This document shows positions 9,049-27,134 of a DNA stretch of 37,640 nucleotides, piece after piece. The notes beneath the pieces were generated by a model, which was given only the letters and a program-made list of their open reading frames with translations, had not been told where the DNA came from and did not search any database. The number at the start of each line of letters is the position of its first letter. Within the stretch, counting starts at the first letter, position 1. The position numbers were made by a program, and so were the translations under genes. This DNA is from Pseudomonadales bacterium (GTDB taxonomy: Bacteria; Pseudomonadota; Gammaproteobacteria; Pseudomonadales; Azotimanducaceae): contig JANQYP010000012.1 of assembly GCA_030728785.1 (NCBI GenBank), positions 1-37,640 of the forward strand, in the 5' to 3' direction.

Positions 9049-11136
9049 GTGGCCGATGTATTTATCAGCTATGCCAGGGAAGACATGATCCGCGTCAAAC
9101 CTCTGGTAGAAGCACTGGAAGGGGAGGGATTCTCGGTCTGGTGGGATAGCGAACTGTCACCAGGTGACAAGTTTGATGACCTGATTGACGATGAAATTCA
9201 GGCCGCTGCCTGCGTGGTTGTCCTGTGGACTGAGGGTTCTGTAAATTCACGCTGGGTAAAGAACGAAGCCCTTGAGGGCATGGACCGGGGTATTCTGGTG
9301 CCTGTCCTGATGGACAATGTCAGATTGCCGGTCGCCTTCAAGCAAAGCCAGATTGCTGACTTCGGCCACTGGCCCGAAAGCGTGCAGACGGATCAATACG
9401 AAAGCTTCATCCAGTCGGTCAGCATAAAAGTGCGTGGTGAGACGATAGCTGAAGTCGATTTCTCTGGCGTCGCAGGCATGCAGGAGCGCGGTAGAAAAAG
9501 GTTTCGCCGCAAGAGAGATTTCGCAGTTCCTGCGCTGACCCTTGCAGTCATCGCGCTCTCGGTTTTTGTGGTCTTTCAGTTCAGTCGCGCACCCGACAAT
9601 GCAAGGCAACTCGCCCGAGTCACCGTCGGTCCCTTTAACGCCGAAATGGGTTCCGACTCACGGTTTTATGCAAGCAGCCTGACACGTGAACTGCAGCTTG
9701 GCCTGGATGAGATTGAGGACATTGAACTTGTCCAGCTGGGTGGTTTTTGGGACATCGACGAGCTGTATTCTGCCGGCAGGAAGCTTGAAAATCAGGTGGA
9801 TTACGTGCTTGCAGGCCAGGTGCAGGCAGGCAATGACCTGATCGAGATCAGTGCCGAGCTGCGCAAGTCCGATCGGGATCGACCCGTCTGGCAGGAGAAA
9901 TACACCACCAGCGGGGATGATTTTCTGGAGGTCCAGAACCGCATCATTCTTGCAGTGATCAGTGAGCTGAAGATGGCCGCAAATAACCGGGAAGTTCCCA
10001 CGCGCGCCATAACAGATAACAAGGCGGCCTACCGGGATTATCTGATCGGCCAGGATCTGATGCGGCGTGGTGAAGAAAGTCATCTTCGGCAGGCAATTAG
10101 TCGGTTTCAGTCAGCACAGGACAAGGACGCCGGATTTACTCTGGCGCTGGCATCGGAGTGTCGCTCCAACCTCGAACTCTTTCGGCTTACTAAAAACGCT
10201 GAAGACTATCAGCGCGGCAAGGAAAACTGCACAAGACTGTCTGCGCTGCAGGACCAGGGTATCGAAGCCAACCTTGCCATGGCCGAGCTTTACGATACCG
10301 GGGGCGAACTCGAGGCAGCAAAATCACACTTCCTGCAAGTACTCGAGCTGGATGCCAAGAATCCCGACGCCAACATGGGTCTGGCTGATATTCTGGTCAG
10401 GGAAGAAGACATGCAACGCGCCCATGCTTTCTATCAGGCGGCCGTCAAAGCCCATCCCACCTACTGGCAAGCCCAGAACGCACTTGGCGCTTTCTATCTT
10501 CGATCCGGCATGTATCACCAGGCCATAGAAAGTTTTATTCGTGTAACTGAGCTGGTAGACGACAATGCCACAGCGTTCAACAACCTGGGTGCCGCGCGGT
10601 TGTACGGTGGCGACTTTGCTGGCGCTTCGCAAGCCTGGCAGGTTTCCACCAACCTCGACCCTAATTCAGCCTCCTTCTCAAACATGGGTGCGGCGCTCTT
10701 TTATGCCAGAAAGTATGCCAACGCCATACAGAGCTACCGAGCCGCACTGGAACTTAACCCGGAGGATCATCGCGTCTGGGGTAATATGGCAGAAGCCCTG
10801 TTGCTGGATGGCACCGACCCGAAGGAAACCAGGCACGCTTACAATACAGCGATTCGGTATGCAGAAGCCGTTATCGCCGTCAATCCTGCAGACGCCTTTA
10901 CCCTGTCGCGCCTGGCTGTTTATTACGCAGCTATCGATAACGACGAGAAGGCGCTGAGCATCATGAGCAGCGCTCAAGATATTGCTGGCCTGGATATCGA
11001 CGTGTTGTATGATAGAGCAGTCGCTTTAACGTTGATGGATCAACTTCCCGATGCCAAGGAAGTGATAACTAAAGCGATAGAGGCAGGTTATCCTGCGGTT
11101 CTTATACAGGCTGACCCGCTACTGAATCGACAATAG
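9049..11136 (+). CDS. TIR domain - transmembrane - TolB_N-like - TPR repeat protein
   Basis: 695 aa, GTG start; DVFISYAREDMIRVKPLVEALEGEGFSVWWD...SRWVKNEALEGM (TIR), TM helix FAVPALTLAVIALSVFVVFQF, multiple C-terminal TPR units. Confidence 0.88.
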   Translation: MADVFISYAREDMIRVKPLVEALEGEGFSVWWDSELSPGDKFDDLIDDEIQAAACVVVLWTEGSVNSRWVKNEALEGMDRGILVPVLMDNVRLPVAFKQSQIADFGHWPESVQTDQYESFIQSVSIKVRGETIAEVDFSGVAGMQERGRKRFRRKRDFAVPALTLAVIALSVFVVFQFSRAPDNARQLARVTVGPFNAEMGSDSRFYASSLTRELQLGLDEIEDIELVQLGGFWDIDELYSAGRKLENQVDYVLAGQVQAGNDLIEISAELRKSDRDRPVWQEKYTTSGDDFLEVQNRIILAVISELKMAANNREVPTRAITDNKAAYRDYLIGQDLMRRGEESHLRQAISRFQSAQDKDAGFTLALASECRSNLELFRLTKNAEDYQRGKENCTRLSALQDQGIEANLAMAELYDTGGELEAAKSHFLQVLELDAKNPDANMGLADILVREEDMQRAHAFYQAAVKAHPTYWQAQNALGAFYLRSGMYHQAIESFIRVTELVDDNATAFNNLGAARLYGGDFAGASQAWQVSTNLDPNSASFSNMGAALFYARKYANAIQSYRAALELNPEDHRVWGNMAEALLLDGTDPKETRHAYNTAIRYAEAVIAVNPADAFTLSRLAVYYAAIDNDEKALSIMSSAQDIAGLDIDVLYDRAVALTLMDQLPDAKEVITKAIEAGYPAVLIQADPLLNRQ

Positions 11137-18858: not shown

Positions 18859-19662
18859 TTATGCCGCTCGCAGGCGTTGTGGTTTCTGGCTGGCAGGCGT
18901 GTCGCTGGCAGTTAGCTGGCGCATTTGCAGCCAGTCGATGACGCGCAGATTCCCCTCCAGATCTTCGGCCAGGGCAGAGCAATGTTCTACCCAGTCACCG
19001 GTGTTGTAATATTTGACACTGTCGTACTGGCAGTTGTTGGGATGATGTATGTGGCCGCAGATCACCCCCGCATAACCGCGGCGGTGGGCCAGGTGGGCCG
19101 CTGCGGCCTCAAATTTATCAATGAAGATAACAGCGTTTTTGAATTTGTATTTTATGTAGGCGGCAAATGACCAGTAGTTGTAGCCTAGTCGCTTGCAAAT
19201 GCGATTGTAGGTCCGGCTGATGGCCAGCGCCACATCATACAGATTGCTGCCTAAGGCTTCGGTCCAGCGGTAGGTGCGAACAGTGTCGTCGAGAGCGTCG
19301 CCGTGCAGCACCAGCAACCTCTCACCTTTGAGGGTCAGATGCGTATCTTCCAGTTTTATCTGAATACCGTTGAAGTCAGTGCCGACAAAGTCTCGCAGAA
19401 GCTCATCGTGATTGCCGGGAATGTAGATGACCTGGGTGCCTGAGTTGGCTTTCGACACCAACTCACAGACAATGTCATTCATGATCCTGGGCCAGTATAT
19501 GGCACTCTTCAGCTGCCACAGGTCGATGATGTCGCCCACGAGGTAAAGCGTCTCGCATGAGGTTGACTGGAGAAACTCCAGCAGTAATTCCGCCTGGCAG
19601 TCGGCGGTACCAAGATGAGTATCTGAAATAAACAGTGTTCTGCAGTGGTGGGTCTGGTGCAT
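18859..19662 (-). CDS. Calcineurin-like metallophosphoesterase (LpxH-like)
   Basis: 267 aa; FISDTHLGT, VGDIIDLW, PGNHDELL, LHGDALD, ICGHIHHP motifs. Confidence 0.9.
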   Translation of the reverse strand: MHQTHHCRTLFISDTHLGTADCQAELLLEFLQSTSCETLYLVGDIIDLWQLKSAIYWPRIMNDIVCELVSKANSGTQVIYIPGNHDELLRDFVGTDFNGIQIKLEDTHLTLKGERLLVLHGDALDDTVRTYRWTEALGSNLYDVALAISRTYNRICKRLGYNYWSFAAYIKYKFKNAVIFIDKFEAAAAHLAHRRGYAGVICGHIHHPNNCQYDSVKYYNTGDWVEHCSALAEDLEGNLRVIDWLQMRQLTASDTPASQKPQRLRAA

Positions 19663-19815: not shown

Positions 19816-21351
19816 ATGACCTGGAAAAACCACGCTAGCCGTGCCAACTGCGTTGCTAAAACATGGTGCGGCATGGACAATAGGCCCACTTGCATCTTGT
19901 TACGGATGCCTCTGGAGTTGAGTTGGAGACCCATGCAGAAAGGTAGTGCCAGACATAAAGCCATTCGCAGCCCGATAGAATATATGCCTGTTGACGTCCA
20001 GCCGTGGCCTCGAGAAGGGGGCTTGCTTGTGGGCCCGGATAATGACCAGGACGATATTTCGCGGCGAGATGTGCAGGCCTACACCAAAGACAAGATGTGG
20101 ACCGCCAGTAGCAGAGTGGTGTATTTTTTCTGTGATATCCACGCTGATGCTGATGCGTTTTTCCTGTCGCTGCTGGCTTCCGGCGGAGTGATTCGAACGG
20201 GTGCGAAAGACGAGGATTTTGAACTCACTAAGGAGGGCCGCGACGCGCTGTTTATTATTGGCGGCGATTGTTTTGACAAGGGGCCTAACAACCTGCGCCT
20301 GCTGGAAGTCATTCACCAGCTTTACCTGAAGGGTGCTGCGCTTGAACTGCTGGCGGGTAACCACGATATCCGCACCTACCTGGGCATCTTTTTTGCTGAA
20401 AGCAAAGATCCGTTACTCGACCATTTGTTTGTGCGTATGGGTAAAAAAACCGTGCCATTGCTTCAGGAGATCTACGAGAAATTTGTTCGAGGCCAGGATG
20501 AGGCTGTTACTGACAATGATGCGCTGATTAATCAATTATTATTCCCCTCTGAGACCTGGTACGAACAATTTCCTACTGTCGCGCAGCAATGGATCAAGCC
20601 CGAGAAACTCGGCAAGGAACTGCGGCGCATCAGGGAGAAAACCATTGAATTTGAAGATCGGGCCAACAAACTCGGTATGGATATTCATGCGGTTTATGCG
20701 GCAATTCAACAATTCAGGGCGCTGTTTTTCGAGCCGGACGGCCGTTATTTCTGGTTTTTCGACAAAATGAAGTTGGCCCATCGAGAAGGCTCCTATCTTT
20801 TCGTTCATGGTGGCATTGATGACTCACTGGCGCACCTGCTGCACGGCAGTGACGTTGAGTGTCTCAACGAGATGTTTCGGCGGCAATTGGCTGAAGGTCC
20901 ATTTGAGCTTTACCACGGGCCGCTGGGTAATGTTTTTCGTACCAAGTACAGAAGCTTTGATTATGATTTCACGGCGGCGGGCGTCACGTCACTGCACAGT
21001 TCCGGCATCTATGCCATAGTCCACGGGCACAGGAATATTCTGCAAGGGCAGAGACTGACAATTCGCCAGGGCATGCTGAATTTTGAGTGTGATGCTTCTG
21101 TCGATTGTAATACTCGTGAGGTTGAAGGATTGTTCGGGCCTGGTGGCGCCGTCATGAGATTTACCCCTGATGGCGCTGTACAGGGGATGAGTACAGACTA
21201 CCCTTATATCAAGCGTTTCCATCCGGGTTGTATCACGATTTATAACAATACCTATAAAAGCACTGATAAAAGCCCGTATAACAGCACGAATGACGCAGCG
21301 ACGATCGTGCAAAAAGGAGAGCACAGCGATGGCGAAAAAAATGAGCAGTAA
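19816..21351 (+). CDS. Calcineurin-like metallophosphoesterase (Ser/Thr phosphatase-like); start uncertain
   Basis: FFCDIHADADAF, IIGGDCFDKGPNNLRLL, LLAGNHDIRTYL, FVHGGIDDS, IVHGHRN motifs. Several in-frame Met codons downstream of the track start (e.g. 19873). Confidence 0.85.
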   Translation: MTWKNHASRANCVAKTWCGMDNRPTCILLRMPLELSWRPMQKGSARHKAIRSPIEYMPVDVQPWPREGGLLVGPDNDQDDISRRDVQAYTKDKMWTASSRVVYFFCDIHADADAFFLSLLASGGVIRTGAKDEDFELTKEGRDALFIIGGDCFDKGPNNLRLLEVIHQLYLKGAALELLAGNHDIRTYLGIFFAESKDPLLDHLFVRMGKKTVPLLQEIYEKFVRGQDEAVTDNDALINQLLFPSETWYEQFPTVAQQWIKPEKLGKELRRIREKTIEFEDRANKLGMDIHAVYAAIQQFRALFFEPDGRYFWFFDKMKLAHREGSYLFVHGGIDDSLAHLLHGSDVECLNEMFRRQLAEGPFELYHGPLGNVFRTKYRSFDYDFTAAGVTSLHSSGIYAIVHGHRNILQGQRLTIRQGMLNFECDASVDCNTREVEGLFGPGGAVMRFTPDGAVQGMSTDYPYIKRFHPGCITIYNNTYKSTDKSPYNSTNDAATIVQKGEHSDGEKNEQ

Positions 21352-21913
21352 AAACAAGTTCAGCTATGAACAAGCGGAAAACATTGATGCGGTCTTCAAT
21401 TATCTGAGTATGGTTAACAAGGGCCTGAAGAATCGTCATCTGTCCTTGGGCGATGATGCGCAGTTGCTTGAGTTGGCACTGCCTGAGCAGGTCAAATTGA
21501 CCATCAAAGCCCAGGTAAAGTCCACCAAGGGTTCCTTAGGGATTGAGCTCAGCTGGCAAATGCCTGAGGAGGAGCTGTTGCCCGGCGGTGCAGTTGACCA
21601 AGCGGCGACAGCATTGACCGATGACGTTAAAACACAAAAGAAGGCGGAAAAAAAGCGCCTTAAAGCTGCAGAGCAAGCACTGAAACTAGCGGAAAAAAAC
21701 GCCGCTAAAGCCGCCAAAGAATCCAAGGACGCCGCCAAAGCTGCAGCTGAAGCAGCAAAGAAAAAAGATCGCGCGGCGCCCGAAAAAGCTGTCAAGCGAT
21801 CAGTCAAGGTCGAAAAAATCGTCAGCAAAGCCACTAAAAACCAGCAGTCAGAGCAGGCCAAGACGCAGAAAAAGCCTAAGTTAGAGCCCGTCGCGGCAGT
21901 TCAGGCCGAGTAA
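21329..21913 (+). CDS. amphi-Trp domain protein with Lys/Ala-rich tail
   Basis: MAKKMSSKNKFSYEQAENIDAVFNYLSMVNKGLKNRHLSLGDDAQLLELALPEQVKLTIKAQVKSTKGSLGIELSWQ resembles the amphi-Trp domain; C-terminal ~90 aa is K/A-rich. ATG at 21329, overlapping the upstream stop by 23 bp. Confidence 0.75.
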   Translation: MAKKMSSKNKFSYEQAENIDAVFNYLSMVNKGLKNRHLSLGDDAQLLELALPEQVKLTIKAQVKSTKGSLGIELSWQMPEEELLPGGAVDQAATALTDDVKTQKKAEKKRLKAAEQALKLAEKNAAKAAKESKDAAKAAAEAAKKKDRAAPEKAVKRSVKVEKIVSKATKNQQSEQAKTQKKPKLEPVAAVQAE

Positions 21914-21969
21914 AACGCCAGCCAGGCCCTGGTTTCTGGCGAGTGAGGGTTCTTGAGCTTTTTTTGTTG

Positions 21970-21991
21970 ATTCTTTATTCATTCTTTATTA
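21970..21991. repeat. 11-bp tandem direct repeat upstream of the PhoU-kinase gene
   Basis: ATTCTTTATTC ATTCTTTATTA, about 55-75 bp upstream of ATG 22045. Confidence 0.8.
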
Positions 21992-22044
21992 ATTGACGCG
22001 CTGCTGCTAACTCGCGCGACGCAAACCGCCAATAAGGTCGCTAA

Positions 22045-23649
22045 ATGCCGTTGGAACAAGGGTTAAATTCGGATCTGCAGTTTTTGATACTGGAAGTGAA
22101 GAAGCAGGGTCGAGCGTCATTGTCGGTCATTGAGAACCCGACAGCAAAAAAAATCGAAAAGATCAAATCTCGCGAATATTTTATTGATAATCTGAAAAAC
22201 ACCATTGAGAACAAAAGTTATTTCAGCATTCACCGTCAGGCAGACGGCGACATTAACCACTTCAAGGCCATTATCACCATAGCGTCCAATTTGGAGCGGT
22301 GTGCAGACTTTTTTGAAAACATCGCCAACCAGATGTCCCATGTTGCAGACCACCTGCTGTTTGTCGAGTTTGACCTGAAGCGTTATTACCAGGTCATCGA
22401 CAAGGCGCTGGATGCAATCTACCCCGCGGTTATCCAGGAGAATCTGGAGCTCGCCCAGAAGATCTGCGATTACGAACAAACCCTTGATGACTACTATGCT
22501 GAAACGGCGGGTATTATCCGCAGAAAACTACGCCAGCGCGCCAAGCTCGATGACATGCTGACCCTGATGACGATCGCCCAGTATCTGGAGCGAGTTGGTG
22601 ACAGCTTCCTGAATATTGGTGAGGCGATTCTGGATATTCATGTCGGTGAGAAGATGGGTATTCGCCAGTTCAGGGACCTGAAGAAGGGCCTTGAGTCACA
22701 GAGCATAGATATCAGCGACGAGCATGTGGAGTTCAAGGCAATCATGAATACTCGATCCGGGTGCAGAGTCGCTCGGGTGATGTCATCACCACCGGGTGTG
22801 CAGGGCCACTCAATCTTCTACAAAGAGGGCGCAGCAGACAAGATTGATGAAGAAGTTGGCGGGCTGAAGTTGTGGCAGAGAAAATACCCTGGCCGAACGC
22901 CAAAAATTCTTTGGCATAACAGTCGCAAAGATACCGCCACCCTGCTCCTGGAGTATATTGATGGGCAGGATCTGCTGGCGATTCTGATCAACACCAGCAG
23001 TAAGCTCGACAAGGCGCTGGAGATCCTCACCAGGTCAATGACGTTGGTATGGGAAGCAAATGTCAGGCACAAAAGCCGCAAGTCCGATTTTATGCTGCAA
23101 CTGCTGAATCGGAAAAAGGATATTCAGTCGGTGCACAGTGGTTTGTTTGAGAAGGATCTTGGTTTTAACCAGCTGATTGCTCAGGGCAAGCGCATTGAAA
23201 GAGACCTGAGGGCGCCATTTACGACCCTTATTCATGGTGACTTTAATGCTGACAACATCCTCTTTCGGCTCGACGAGGACAGTGTTTTTTATGTGGATGT
23301 GCACCGCAGTTGTTACGGTGACTATGTGCAGGATATTTCCGTGTTCCTGATCTCAAACTTCAGGGTGCCGATTTTCAGTCCGGAAATTCGCCAACGCTTG
23401 AATCTTGCCAATCAGCGTATTTATGCCTGTGCGGCAGAATATGCCGCGAGGCAAAACGACAGCACATTTGAAGCCCGCCTGGCCCTGGGTTTATTCAGGT
23501 CGCTGGTGACCTCTACCCGCTTTGTTTTTGACAAAGACATTTCGAATCAATTTATTGAGCGCGCCTCAATTATTATGCACGAGTTAAACGCTCATAAAGA
23601 CAATCTCAGTGAATTCAAATTGAACACCGAGTTGTTTCTGTACAGTTGA
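22045..23649 (+). CDS. PhoU-like domain fused to an aminoglycoside phosphotransferase (APH)-like kinase domain
   Basis: N-terminal helical repeats (FKAIITIASNLERCADFFENIANQM; MLTLMTIAQYLERVGDSFLNIGEAI) match the PhoU ER..D pattern; C-terminal LIHGDFNADNILFRLDEDSVFYVDVH is an APH catalytic loop and metal site. Confidence 0.85.
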   Translation: MPLEQGLNSDLQFLILEVKKQGRASLSVIENPTAKKIEKIKSREYFIDNLKNTIENKSYFSIHRQADGDINHFKAIITIASNLERCADFFENIANQMSHVADHLLFVEFDLKRYYQVIDKALDAIYPAVIQENLELAQKICDYEQTLDDYYAETAGIIRRKLRQRAKLDDMLTLMTIAQYLERVGDSFLNIGEAILDIHVGEKMGIRQFRDLKKGLESQSIDISDEHVEFKAIMNTRSGCRVARVMSSPPGVQGHSIFYKEGAADKIDEEVGGLKLWQRKYPGRTPKILWHNSRKDTATLLLEYIDGQDLLAILINTSSKLDKALEILTRSMTLVWEANVRHKSRKSDFMLQLLNRKKDIQSVHSGLFEKDLGFNQLIAQGKRIERDLRAPFTTLIHGDFNADNILFRLDEDSVFYVDVHRSCYGDYVQDISVFLISNFRVPIFSPEIRQRLNLANQRIYACAAEYAARQNDSTFEARLALGLFRSLVTSTRFVFDKDISNQFIERASIIMHELNAHKDNLSEFKLNTELFLYS

Positions 23650-24545
23650 TGGAGAGTCCAAGATTGAATATAGGTGTAATTGGTATTCGTGGCGCCTGGT
23701 CCACAGAGTCGCTTCGGCAACATTTAGTCAAGAAAAATGCCGGCGGCACTATCATCCAGCTGGATGAAATGTCCTATGATTTTGCCACCGGCAGAGCTGC
23801 TTTAAATCACCATGATTTGGCCGATTTTGACGGGTTTATCATCAAGAAGATGGGTAAACATTACTCCAGCAATCTGCTCGATGAACTGGAGTTGCTGGAA
23901 TTGTTTGAGCGCCAGGGGGTGCGGTTTTTTTCCTCACCGAAGGCGATTAAGTCCATGATCAGTCGCCTGGGTTGTACGGTTCGACTCAGTGAGAATGATA
24001 TTCCAATGCCTGCGACTTTTGTCACAGAAGATATCGACGACGCTGTGGCCTGGGTCACGGCAAATGCTCCGGTGATCCTCAAGCCGCTTTACAGCACCAA
24101 AGCCAAAGGCATGGTGCTGCTCACCGATGGGGCTGTGGCGCGCCAGCACTTTGTCGAGTTACAGGCGCGCAACGACAACATCATCTATCTGCAAAAGTAC
24201 TACGATCTGTCCGGTTCTGATTATGGTCTGGTGTTTCTCGCTGGTGAGTATCTGGGTGCCTATGCTCGAGTGGGCGACGGGAGCACCTGGCACACAACGA
24301 CCCGGCAGGGGGGTAAATATTGTTTGTATGAGCCCACAGCAGAGCTGATCCAGCTGGCTGAGCGGGCGCAAAAGCCCTTTGGTCTGGATTTTACCTGCGT
24401 TGATATCGCCATCACTCAGGAAGTCGGGCCCGTCGTGTTTGAGGTGTCCGCCTTTGGTGGCTACAAGGGTCTGTTTGCGAGCACCGGATTAGACGCCTCT
24501 GACCTGTTAACAGACTATGCCATCAGGAACTTGACCAATGACTGA
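23649..24545 (+). CDS. ATP-grasp enzyme, GAK-system type (RimK-like)
   Basis: MESPRLNIGVIGIRGAWSTESLRQHL...FSSPKAIKSMISRLGCTVRLSENDIPMPATFVTEDIDDAVAW...VILKPLYSTKAKGMVLL...GPVVFEVSAFGGYKGL. ATG overlaps the preceding TGA. Confidence 0.85.
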   Translation: MESPRLNIGVIGIRGAWSTESLRQHLVKKNAGGTIIQLDEMSYDFATGRAALNHHDLADFDGFIIKKMGKHYSSNLLDELELLELFERQGVRFFSSPKAIKSMISRLGCTVRLSENDIPMPATFVTEDIDDAVAWVTANAPVILKPLYSTKAKGMVLLTDGAVARQHFVELQARNDNIIYLQKYYDLSGSDYGLVFLAGEYLGAYARVGDGSTWHTTTRQGGKYCLYEPTAELIQLAERAQKPFGLDFTCVDIAITQEVGPVVFEVSAFGGYKGLFASTGLDASDLLTDYAIRNLTND

Positions 24546-25614
24546 CCTGATCTCTCTACTGGAACAAAGTGAACAGAAATGTACTCAGGCGCTGCTGCTC
24601 GACCTCGGCGGTTTCCTGGTCTGTTTTAAGTCAAACTCGTCACGGCTGATTGATGATCTGCGTGACTATTACCAATATTTCCTTATGGACAGCGATCGTG
24701 TCACGCGAGAGCCAGACAGCATTGTGATTGGTTATCAGTGTGCAACACCTGCAATCGCCGGCGACTGGCAGGTCAAACAGCCGGATCCGGGCAAAACCAA
24801 GGTGAAAGAAAGCCTGTTACATCTGCGGCCAGGTGAGTTGGTGATCCACAAAGTGCTGACTGGCATTCACCTGTTGTTCGCCGGTAAGCGGCGCGTGTGT
24901 TTTGGGCCGCTGGAAGCCAACCCAAACCAGGTGGTGAATTTTATCAACAACATGCACCTGGATGCTCTCCTCAGCCCTGCTGGCCAGTTGTTTCATGCCT
25001 CGGGTGTCTGTGTCGGTGAACATGGACTGGGCATGGCGGGTAAGTCTGGCAAAGGCAAATCGACCTTGGCCTTGCGCCTGCTGCAGCGCGGCATGGACCT
25101 GGTGAGTAATGACCGGCTGGTGGTGATCAATAACGAACAACATCTTGGCATGCATGGCATCACCAAATATCCGCGAATCAACCCGGGCACGGTGATTAAC
25201 CAGCCGGAGTTGTTGGATATCGTCAAGGCCGAAGATATGGCCCGTTATGAGGCGATGGATTTTCACGATCTGTGGGAACTCGAAGAGAAATATGATGCTT
25301 TTGTCGAGGCGGCGTTTGGCGTTGATTTTGTTCTGAACGCTAAGATGCGCATGTTTGTCGCACTGGACTGGGACAGGACACTGAGTGCGCCAACCCGCCT
25401 GGATCGACGTGACCCGAAGGACTATCCAAAGCTCGTAGAAACGGTCATGAAATCACCCGGCATCATGCTGCCAGCGTCGAGTACGCGAATTCCCGCAGCG
25501 GTGGTTGAACCCTACATCGCATTGCTGTCAGAGTGCGAGTTTTACGTGCTCAGTGGCGGTGTCGATTTTGATGCGGCTGCAGATTTGATCCAGGCGCGGC
25601 TGGCACGTTTCTGA
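24538..25614 (+). CDS. HprK-related kinase (GAK-system, kinase B-like)
   Basis: 358 aa; Walker A GMAGKSGKGKSTLALRLLQRGMDLVSNDRLVV; GITKYPRINPGTVINQP resembles HprK-related kinase B. Start overlaps the ATP-grasp stop by 8 bp. Confidence 0.87.
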   Translation: MTDLISLLEQSEQKCTQALLLDLGGFLVCFKSNSSRLIDDLRDYYQYFLMDSDRVTREPDSIVIGYQCATPAIAGDWQVKQPDPGKTKVKESLLHLRPGELVIHKVLTGIHLLFAGKRRVCFGPLEANPNQVVNFINNMHLDALLSPAGQLFHASGVCVGEHGLGMAGKSGKGKSTLALRLLQRGMDLVSNDRLVVINNEQHLGMHGITKYPRINPGTVINQPELLDIVKAEDMARYEAMDFHDLWELEEKYDAFVEAAFGVDFVLNAKMRMFVALDWDRTLSAPTRLDRRDPKDYPKLVETVMKSPGIMLPASSTRIPAAVVEPYIALLSECEFYVLSGGVDFDAAADLIQARLARF

Positions 25615-25634: not shown

Positions 25635-27134
25635 CTATTGAATGAAGAGCGAGTCCTGCCAAACTGTGTCATCGGCCTGAAACGCACTGAGGTGTCGCAG
25701 CAGGTTATTGCCCTCAGTTAACAATCTTTCCGGGTTGCCCCTGGATTCCAGATTGAGGCGCACCAGGGCCTCGGTTTTTGAGATGCTCAGACTGAAGCGC
25801 CAGTCGCCAGGCATCTCAAAGCTTATGCCGTCGAAGTGATCAACTGCCTTGGCCCCTTGGGCATAACGCGCCTGAATTAGCGCAAAGGCACGCTCAACAT
25901 CGTTGAGTTGCAAATTGATTTCTGGCGTGCAGCAGATTTTCTGCCGAATGCCGCTGACAACTTCCCCTAGTGACTGGCCCTGCTGGTTCAAAATTTCTAT
26001 CACCTTGAGCCAGGCGATCATGCCAGAATCACAGGCAAAAAAATCGCCAAAATAATGGTGGGAGGATAGTTCGCCACCATAGGCTGCCTGGTTAGCACGC
26101 ATGTGTTGTTTCATAAACGCGTGCCCTGTCTCTGAGCGCACAGCGCGGCCTCTGTTGCCTCGAATGACATCCAGGGTGTGCCAGCACAACTTGGTATCAA
26201 AGACGATGGCGGCACCGGGCCGAGTCTGCAGGTAGTGTTGGGCCAGCAGGCCAATGACAAAATAGGTGGGTACCAGCTCGCCAGCGCCGTCAAAGAACAC
26301 GCAGCGATCGCAGTCGCCATCCCAGGCGACGCCCATGGAAAATGTCTGCTGCTGCATAAACTGGTGCATTTCTGCCTGCAGGCGTGGCTTCGACGGATCC
26401 GCGCCTTCGGCGGGCAGGGGCCCGGGTTGTCGTCGAAACCAATGTACGGGCAGCATAAAGTGACTCGCCAGGTCATGGGCGAGGGTGGCCGCTGTACCAT
26501 TCAGGCCGTTTAATGCGATTAACCCATTGCCCGTTGGCATAGACTTGAAACGCGCATTGAGAAAGTGCAGATAGGCACCCTGGACATCCTGCTCAATCAA
26601 TGTGCCGCGCCTGGCACTGTTTCTGTGGTTGCTGAGCATCAGGGTCATGACTTGCTGCAGGCCGCTGGCAAAGGTGACCGGCTGGCCATTGCTCAGAACG
26701 AGCTTAAAGCCGTTGAATGCCGGAGGGTTGTGGCTGGCCGTGACAACTACGGCGGCATCAATTGCCGGCAGGGATGAGGCAAAGTAGCCAAGTTCTGTGG
26801 CGCACAAGCCAAGATCTACGACGTTTACGCCAGACGCCAACAACCCTTCTATGAGTTGCTGATGAAGCACCGGGCTGGAATCACGGGCATCGTGCCCGAC
26901 TGCAATGGTGCCTGTTAACTGAAAATAGTGGGCGATGCCATGGCCAAACGCCAGGGCAAAATCGGCATTCACATCCTCTGGGTACAGGCCCCGAACATCG
27001 CCAAGGCGGAATGCTTTTAGTTTTTTATCCATGTCGCGCATACTAGCATATACGACGCCCCTGCAGCCTGATGGGTGCAGGGGCGTCGTAATAAATTTCA
27101 ACCAGGAAATAACCGCCAGCCAGTCTGCATGCAA
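25635..27134 (-). CDS. Phosphomannomutase/phosphoglucomutase family (alpha-D-phosphohexomutase); real start probably an internal Met (~27032-27041)
   Basis: Phosphoserine motif VVTASHNPPAFNGFKL, metal motif AWDGDCDRCVFFD, sugar motif GELSSHHYF. Confidence 0.9.
   Translation of the reverse strand: MHADWLAVISWLKFITTPLHPSGCRGVVYASMRDMDKKLKAFRLGDVRGLYPEDVNADFALAFGHGIAHYFQLTGTIAVGHDARDSSPVLHQQLIEGLLASGVNVVDLGLCATELGYFASSLPAIDAAVVVTASHNPPAFNGFKLVLSNGQPVTFASGLQQVMTLMLSNHRNSARRGTLIEQDVQGAYLHFLNARFKSMPTGNGLIALNGLNGTAATLAHDLASHFMLPVHWFRRQPGPLPAEGADPSKPRLQAEMHQFMQQQTFSMGVAWDGDCDRCVFFDGAGELVPTYFVIGLLAQHYLQTRPGAAIVFDTKLCWHTLDVIRGNRGRAVRSETGHAFMKQHMRANQAAYGGELSSHHYFGDFFACDSGMIAWLKVIEILNQQGQSLGEVVSGIRQKICCTPEINLQLNDVERAFALIQARYAQGAKAVDHFDGISFEMPGDWRFSLSISKTEALVRLNLESRGNPERLLTEGNNLLRHLSAFQADDTVWQDSLFIQ
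27051..27090. promoter_or_regulatory. 15-bp perfect hairpin between the divergent phosphomutase and acyltransferase genes
   Basis: TACGACGCCCCTGCA-gcctgatggg-TGCAGGGGCGTCGTA. Confidence 0.7.

Follow-up and report, generated by a model that had tools for sequence, protein, structure and literature searches.

The window analysed here, a stretch of 37,640 nucleotides from an uncultured member of the Pseudomonadales (Azotimanducaceae; JANQYP010000012.1), carries five packed genes resembling the computationally named GAK (Grasp And Kinase) system, and it raises the question of which genes make up that system and what they might do together. A preliminary description of the window had treated the phosphoesterase and the PhoU-APH kinase fusion as extra members, attached to ATP-grasp, HprK-related kinase B (HprK-B) and amphi-Trp genes. 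Our comparisons turn this round: the genes that accompany the ATP-grasp enzyme most constantly are the phosphoesterase and PhoU-APH, and HprK-B and amphi-Trp are those lost in close relatives. Sequence comparison suggests that the GAK core consists of the PhoU-fused kinase, the ATP-grasp and a phosphatase of one of two unrelated kinds, which would make the system look less like the kinase pair of its name than like a cycle, linked to phosphate, of making and erasing.

The five co-directional genes occupy 19984-25614 of the forward strand and lie as previously described, overlaps included, apart from the start of the first, which we moved from 19816, merely the beginning of the longest open frame, to the ATG at 19984 because of the alignment of homologues and a profile match from 19972. 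The phosphoesterase and amphi-Trp genes share 23 bp (21329-21351), the PhoU-APH stop overlaps the ATP-grasp ATG in the TGATG at 23647-23651, and the ATP-grasp and HprK-B genes share 8 bp (24538-24545). The genes are:

19984..21351, + strand: calcineurin/PPP-like metallophosphoesterase (GAK phosphoesterase, MPE type); Metallophos PF00149, E = 2e-6
21329..21913, + strand: amphi-Trp domain protein bearing a Lys/Ala-rich tail of 118 residues; TIGR04354, 39.7 bits, cut-off 31 bits
22045..23649, + strand: PhoU-APH fusion kinase in one frame; PhoU PF01895, E = 5e-20; APH PF01636, E = 1.5e-10
23649..24545, + strand: GAK ATP-grasp enzyme (RimK/MptN/LysX-like); grasp_GAK TIGR04356, 351 bits, cut-off 300 bits
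24538..25614, + strand: HprK-related kinase B; HprK_rel_B TIGR04355, 331 bits, cut-off 200 bits

The amphi-Trp, ATP-grasp and HprK-B proteins all score above the curated NCBIfam cut-offs given with them, and the window locus is therefore a GAK locus, as had been proposed. A promoter scan of the window gave no more matches than were found in shuffled sequence.

In order to see which genes accompany the ATP-grasp elsewhere, we used two samples. A scan of genome contigs yielded 517 stretches encoding relatives of the window ATP-grasp, the closest 80 of which were fetched with their flanks; locus counts are out of 81, the window plus these 80, and thus describe nearest relatives rather than a random sample. 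An independent profile test covered 399 genomes drawn evenly across the window's phylum. The window genome is 85% complete and its relatives are mostly metagenome-assembled, and absence here means that no match over the cut-off was present in a draft genome.

Profiles found the ATP-grasp in 14 of the 399 genomes, full-length PhoU-APH in 13, the calcineurin-type phosphoesterase in 15 and HprK-B in 16, and these sets coincide save for three genomes (G089, G194 and G238) in which the genes sit at contig ends. All 15 phosphoesterase-positive genomes have HprK-B and 13 have the ATP-grasp. With kinship ignored, the co-occurrence of ATP-grasp and full-length PhoU-APH gave a Fisher p of approximately 2e-23, which is why we do not regard the clustering of GAK genes as a product of chance. 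Of the 81 loci, 77 have a PhoU-APH relative that contains APH, 71 have amphi-Trp, 69 have HprK-B and 34 have a phosphoesterase of the window's type. Where PhoU-APH is missing, three loci (L071, L082 and L099) are on short or cut contigs, and the fourth (L037) belongs to a genome, G001, that encodes it on another contig. Both samples thus tie the phosphoesterase and PhoU-APH genes to GAK beyond the window.

The nearest relatives of the window show which parts can be lost. Three genomes of the same genus (G003, G004 and G005) and one of the same family (G006) have the phosphoesterase, PhoU-APH and ATP-grasp genes side by side, and in G001 the phosphoesterase and ATP-grasp genes lie together. In none of these five genomes (four of the same genus, one of the same family) did HprK-B or amphi-Trp exceed the cut-off anywhere in the genome. 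A further member of the genus (G002, 98% complete) had no ATP-grasp or HprK-B over the cut-off and no full-length PhoU-APH. Because the neighbourhoods are intact, gene loss in the relatives is likelier than missing sequence. By these sequence comparisons, the three enzymes travel together in the window clade, with HprK-B and amphi-Trp dispensable there. The XXXCH protein (TIGR04358) is not a defining part either, because it is linked at 12 of the 81 loci only, all of the PHP type described below; neither the genome of the window nor those of six relatives gave a match over the cut-off.

The phosphoesterase slot is filled in two ways. In an 18-member alignment, the D-x-HAD, GGD-x-x-DKGP, GNHD and GH-type motifs of the window phosphoesterase are invariant, marking it, as judged from its sequence, as a divergent calcineurin-type enzyme. 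Such an enzyme is encoded at 34 of the 81 loci; 39 have a PHP-type protein, none has both and eight have neither, several of these being cut by contig ends. The PHP-type protein, of approximately 400 residues, is encoded by the first gene of its loci (39; for example L069:6808-8019, L042, L055 and L091) and matches no Pfam or NCBIfam model. Its structural model (pLDDT 86) has PHP phosphoesterases as its sole significant folds in the PDB (3o0f, 3e0f and RNase AM, 9etk; E values 2e-5 to 2e-4), and the motifs HWHPE, PHPEQ and GDDxH, conserved in the family, resemble those of PHP metal sites; this unnamed GAK protein is thus predicted to be a PHP-fold phosphoesterase. Homology between the two phosphoesterases was rejected, profile comparison giving a probability of 0.6%, and no PHP-type protein was found in the window genome or its relatives. 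Where both genes occur, the phosphoesterase lies directly 5′ of amphi-Trp at 28 of 29 calcineurin-type and at least 34 of 38 PHP-type loci, three of the four exceptions arising where the longest-open-frame rule stretched the amphi-Trp frame 5′ into the phosphoesterase gene. The exchange of unrelated phosphoesterases in the slot before amphi-Trp suggests dephosphorylation to be a necessary step, and this narrows the search for a substrate.

Two gene trees place the window apart from both kinds of locus. In the ATP-grasp tree, the window and seven relatives split off with a support of 100/100, and the PhoU-APH tree divides in three, the PHP-type proteins with a support of only 62, and the window clade and the remaining calcineurin-type proteins with a support of 100 each. 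The window thus belongs to a third GAK lineage, in uncultured Pseudomonadales, which to our knowledge is undescribed. Its character is mixed. The order phosphoesterase - amphi-Trp - PhoU-APH - ATP-grasp - HprK-B is that seen at PHP-type loci, except that the slot holds the other phosphoesterase, whereas in the alpha/gammaproteobacterial lineage the order is (NUDIX) - PhoU-APH - ATP-grasp - HprK-B - (SixA-NUDIX) - histidine phosphatase - phosphoesterase - amphi-Trp. The motif E-R-x-x-D occurs twice in the PhoU half of 36 of 39 PHP-type proteins and all seven of the window clade, and is absent from all 26 other calcineurin-type proteins, so that the window lineage has the gene order and intact PhoU motifs of one type and the phosphoesterase of the other.

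GAK loci occur in the Pseudomonadota, Thermodesulfobacteriota, Planctomycetota and Nitrospinota. Desulfamplus magnetovallimortis has two (L053 and L087), and in the neighbourhood of one of them no HprK-B or amphi-Trp gene was detected. The genes added in the alpha/gammaproteobacterial lineage encode a histidine phosphatase (25 loci), a NUDIX protein (15) and a SixA-NUDIX fusion (11), the last being a SixA-like histidine phosphatase joined to NUDIX within the operon (L049:4763-5734, L107:8751-9725 and L092:9640-10617). GAK operons also lie on five plasmids of Rhodobacterales, including NZ_CP015232.1 and NZ_CP042262.1; the five are 111-449 kb long, are typed as non-mobilizable and are hosted by Tritonibacter, Qingshengfaniella and Pseudooceanicola, and two of them were examined closely.

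The individual proteins indicate what chemistry might be involved. The window PhoU half keeps both E-R-x-x-D motifs, and the APH half has intact HGDFNxDN and DxHR catalytic motifs in alignment. The AlphaFold model of the fusion (pLDDT 91) has APH(3′)-Ia as its best fold match, the fold being that of small-molecule kinases of the APH/choline-kinase type; a role in aminoglycoside resistance was rejected, the scores being far below the APH cut-offs. The nearest solved structures to the ATP-grasp are LysX and RimK (E approximately 1e-17), and of the other NCBIfam models MptN scores highest (138.7 bits). HprK-B has a Walker A element, GxSGxGKST, and an NDR element. In the amphi-Trp domain, one residue only, a Trp, is invariant, and there is no conserved C-terminal or side-chain acceptor. 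Lys/Ala-rich, histone-H1-like tails are found on three window-clade amphi-Trp proteins (window 21560-21913, L038:495-1061 and L039:7710-8360) and nowhere else in the sample.

We favour a cytoplasmic, phosphate-linked cycle of three enzymes that would phosphorylate, ligate and dephosphorylate a small molecule, and consider this reading, whose steps and substrate class are inferred, about equally likely to be right or wrong. The PhoU half would sense phosphate or metal status and set the APH kinase, which would phosphorylate a hydroxyl of a small metabolite of the sugar, polyol or amino-alcohol class; the ATP-grasp would activate a carboxylate with ATP and, by ligating it, make the product or lengthen it, and the metallophosphoesterase would strip the phosphate, resetting or maturing that product. 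The amphi-Trp protein, usually encoded straight after the phosphoesterase, would probably partner or control it, and HprK-B may add a further, dispensable phosphorylation. We favour such a cycle because of the enzyme families, the Pst, PhoU, PhoB and PhoR genes near GAK and an excess of lone PhoU genes. Genes for PstS, PstA, PstB, PhoU, PhoB-like proteins and PhoR lie near four loci (L042, L097, L105 and L110), and a PhoU gene near L077; including that at L088, five lone PhoU genes occur among the 1031 genes surveyed, where well under one would be expected by an estimate that assumes roughly one PhoU per genome and uses no background set. These pst, phoU and phoBR genes, beside GAK in other phyla, lend modest support to the general phosphate context that had been proposed.

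Several observations weigh against the proposed cycle. The PhoU motifs are missing throughout the alpha/gammaproteobacterial lineage (0/26), which precludes the sensing of phosphate or metal as a general property. The E-x-N metal site of RimK reads E-x-S (FEVSAFG) in 14 of 14 aligned GAK ATP-grasps, and with Ser in place of the metal-site Asn, RimK-like ligase chemistry is not assured; only these 14 profile-gathered sequences were used, and not the count of 81/81 loci, since the motif was one of the patterns of the locus scan. The window has three Pho-box matches, each with three mismatches, which equals the chance expectation, and the locus counts come from the nearest among 517 relatives, not from a random sample. 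We offer only tentatively, as somewhat more apt to be wrong than right, the broader proposal that GAK is a widespread, unrecognised, phosphate-responsive metabolic or signalling cycle, with a PhoU-controlled kinase, a divergent ATP-grasp and an obligatory phosphoesterase of two swapped folds, of which the window clade would be a stripped-down form with HprK-B and amphi-Trp as accessories.

The preliminary description had envisaged a set of enzymes that builds and erases a modification, perhaps on the amphi-Trp protein. The ATP-grasp would then ligate an amino acid or peptide to amphi-Trp, or a kinase would phosphorylate it, and the phosphoesterase would erase the mark; RimK and LysX do modify proteins or carrier proteins, the phosphoesterase and amphi-Trp genes adjoin at almost every locus of either type, and PHP-type loci often carry duplicated amphi-Trp genes. 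It is the target that is weakened, since five relatives keep the three-enzyme core with no detectable amphi-Trp gene and the sole invariant Trp offers no conserved acceptor, and we consider this reading unlikely. Tailoring of a cofactor, comparable with F420 or methanopterin glutamylation, would build a phosphorylated cofactor by means of an MptN-like ligase together with a CofD-like transferase, in keeping with the MptN score and with the GAK CofD-like gene (TIGR04357) beside 35 of the 81 loci. Being linked at these only, CofD-like is not a defining part of GAK; no such protein was found in the genome of the window or in those of seven relatives, and the F420 and methanopterin pathways do not include two kinases and a phosphatase, which leaves this explanation quite unlikely.

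Eukaryotic PPIP5K/DIPP metabolism employs enzymes of the histidine phosphatase and NUDIX classes, and the genes for such enzymes, with the SixA-NUDIX fusions, in the alpha/gammaproteobacterial lineage invite comparison with inositol (pyro)phosphate signalling, in which the ATP-grasp and APH would phosphorylate a polyol phosphate and the phosphoesterase, histidine phosphatase and NUDIX protein would dephosphorylate it. The PhoU and pst context and the departure of the ATP-grasp metal site from RimK would fit. The window locus has neither histidine phosphatase nor NUDIX genes, however, and in sequence searches the ATP-grasp groups with the RimK/LysX/MptN carboxylate ligases rather than with inositol phosphate kinases, so that we judge a bacterial analogue improbable. 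A part in phosphate storage, with the Lys/Ala-rich amphi-Trp protein coating polyphosphate granules, would account for the PhoU domain, the tail and the phosphate transporter genes near some loci, but is very improbable, given that the tail is confined to three clade proteins, that amphi-Trp is lost altogether in relatives and that no polyphosphate kinase or polyphosphatase family is among the operon's domain matches. Metallophosphoesterases and APH proteins are common, generic families, the sole point in favour of unrelated phosphate genes having come together by chance; such an assembly is hardly credible, being refuted by the co-occurrence and synteny seen in many phyla.

Of the neighbouring genes, one is convergent with the operon:

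25635..27134, − strand: phosphomannomutase/phosphoglucomutase-type enzyme; PGM_PMM domains

This phosphohexomutase family lies beside GAK in the window and at L034, L035, L036, L038 and L040, and also at L042, L055 and L067; in G003-G006 its gene adjoins that for the ATP-grasp. It is a conserved flanking gene of the window clade, with an uncertain role in GAK. Of the phosphate or envelope context suggested earlier, this enzyme is the part that holds in the clade. The PiT transporter was rejected as a part of the system, being nearby at just one other surveyed locus, as were the LpxH-like phosphoesterase and the acyltransferase, which have no relatives beside GAK at other loci. The LpxH-like gene (18859-19662, − strand), just upstream of the operon, scores 54-58 bits, under the LpxH cut-offs. 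An anti-phage defence role was also rejected, as none of the five operon proteins matches a PADLOC model. Unrelated to the operon, an open reading frame at 9049-11136 looks by eye as if it encoded a TIR-like domain at the N terminus and, after it, tetratricopeptide-like repeats.

These results redefine the GAK parts list, adding two constant but generically annotated members, identifying a predicted PHP-fold phosphoesterase and showing which parts can be lost. We found no paper on GAK, amphi-Trp or HprK-related kinase in the open-licence literature searched. Cultured hosts include Roseovarius, Labrenzia, Marinomonas and Desulfovibrio, in addition to the Tritonibacter plasmids.

Compared with known systems, the PhoU-APH protein shares with the phosphate signalling protein PhoU its N-terminal domain (E values 1e-20 to 5e-20), with helical repeats and, in the window, two E-R-x-x-D motifs, but differs in its fusion to an APH kinase and in the loss of the motifs from the alpha/gammaproteobacterial GAK lineage. 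With APH kinases it has fold and catalytic motifs in common, although the window protein scores 33.9 bits against the APH(3′) cut-off of 205. The GAK ATP-grasp has the ATP-site Lys and the metal-site Asp and Glu of RimK, MptN and LysX, but an incomplete D/E/N metal site (Asn to Ser) and no ribosomal, carrier or pterin context. The alternative phosphoesterase of PHP-type loci has the predicted fold of PHP phosphoesterases such as BAD_1165 and RNase AM/YciV, differing in its want of a Pfam or NCBIfam match. With the GAK system as modelled in NCBIfam (TIGR04354-TIGR04358), the window shares adjacent, co-directional ATP-grasp, HprK-B and amphi-Trp genes; it differs in that its clade forms a separate lineage in two gene trees, and in that PhoU-APH and the phosphoesterase, which match no GAK-specific model and bear generic PGAP names in relatives, are here constant members.

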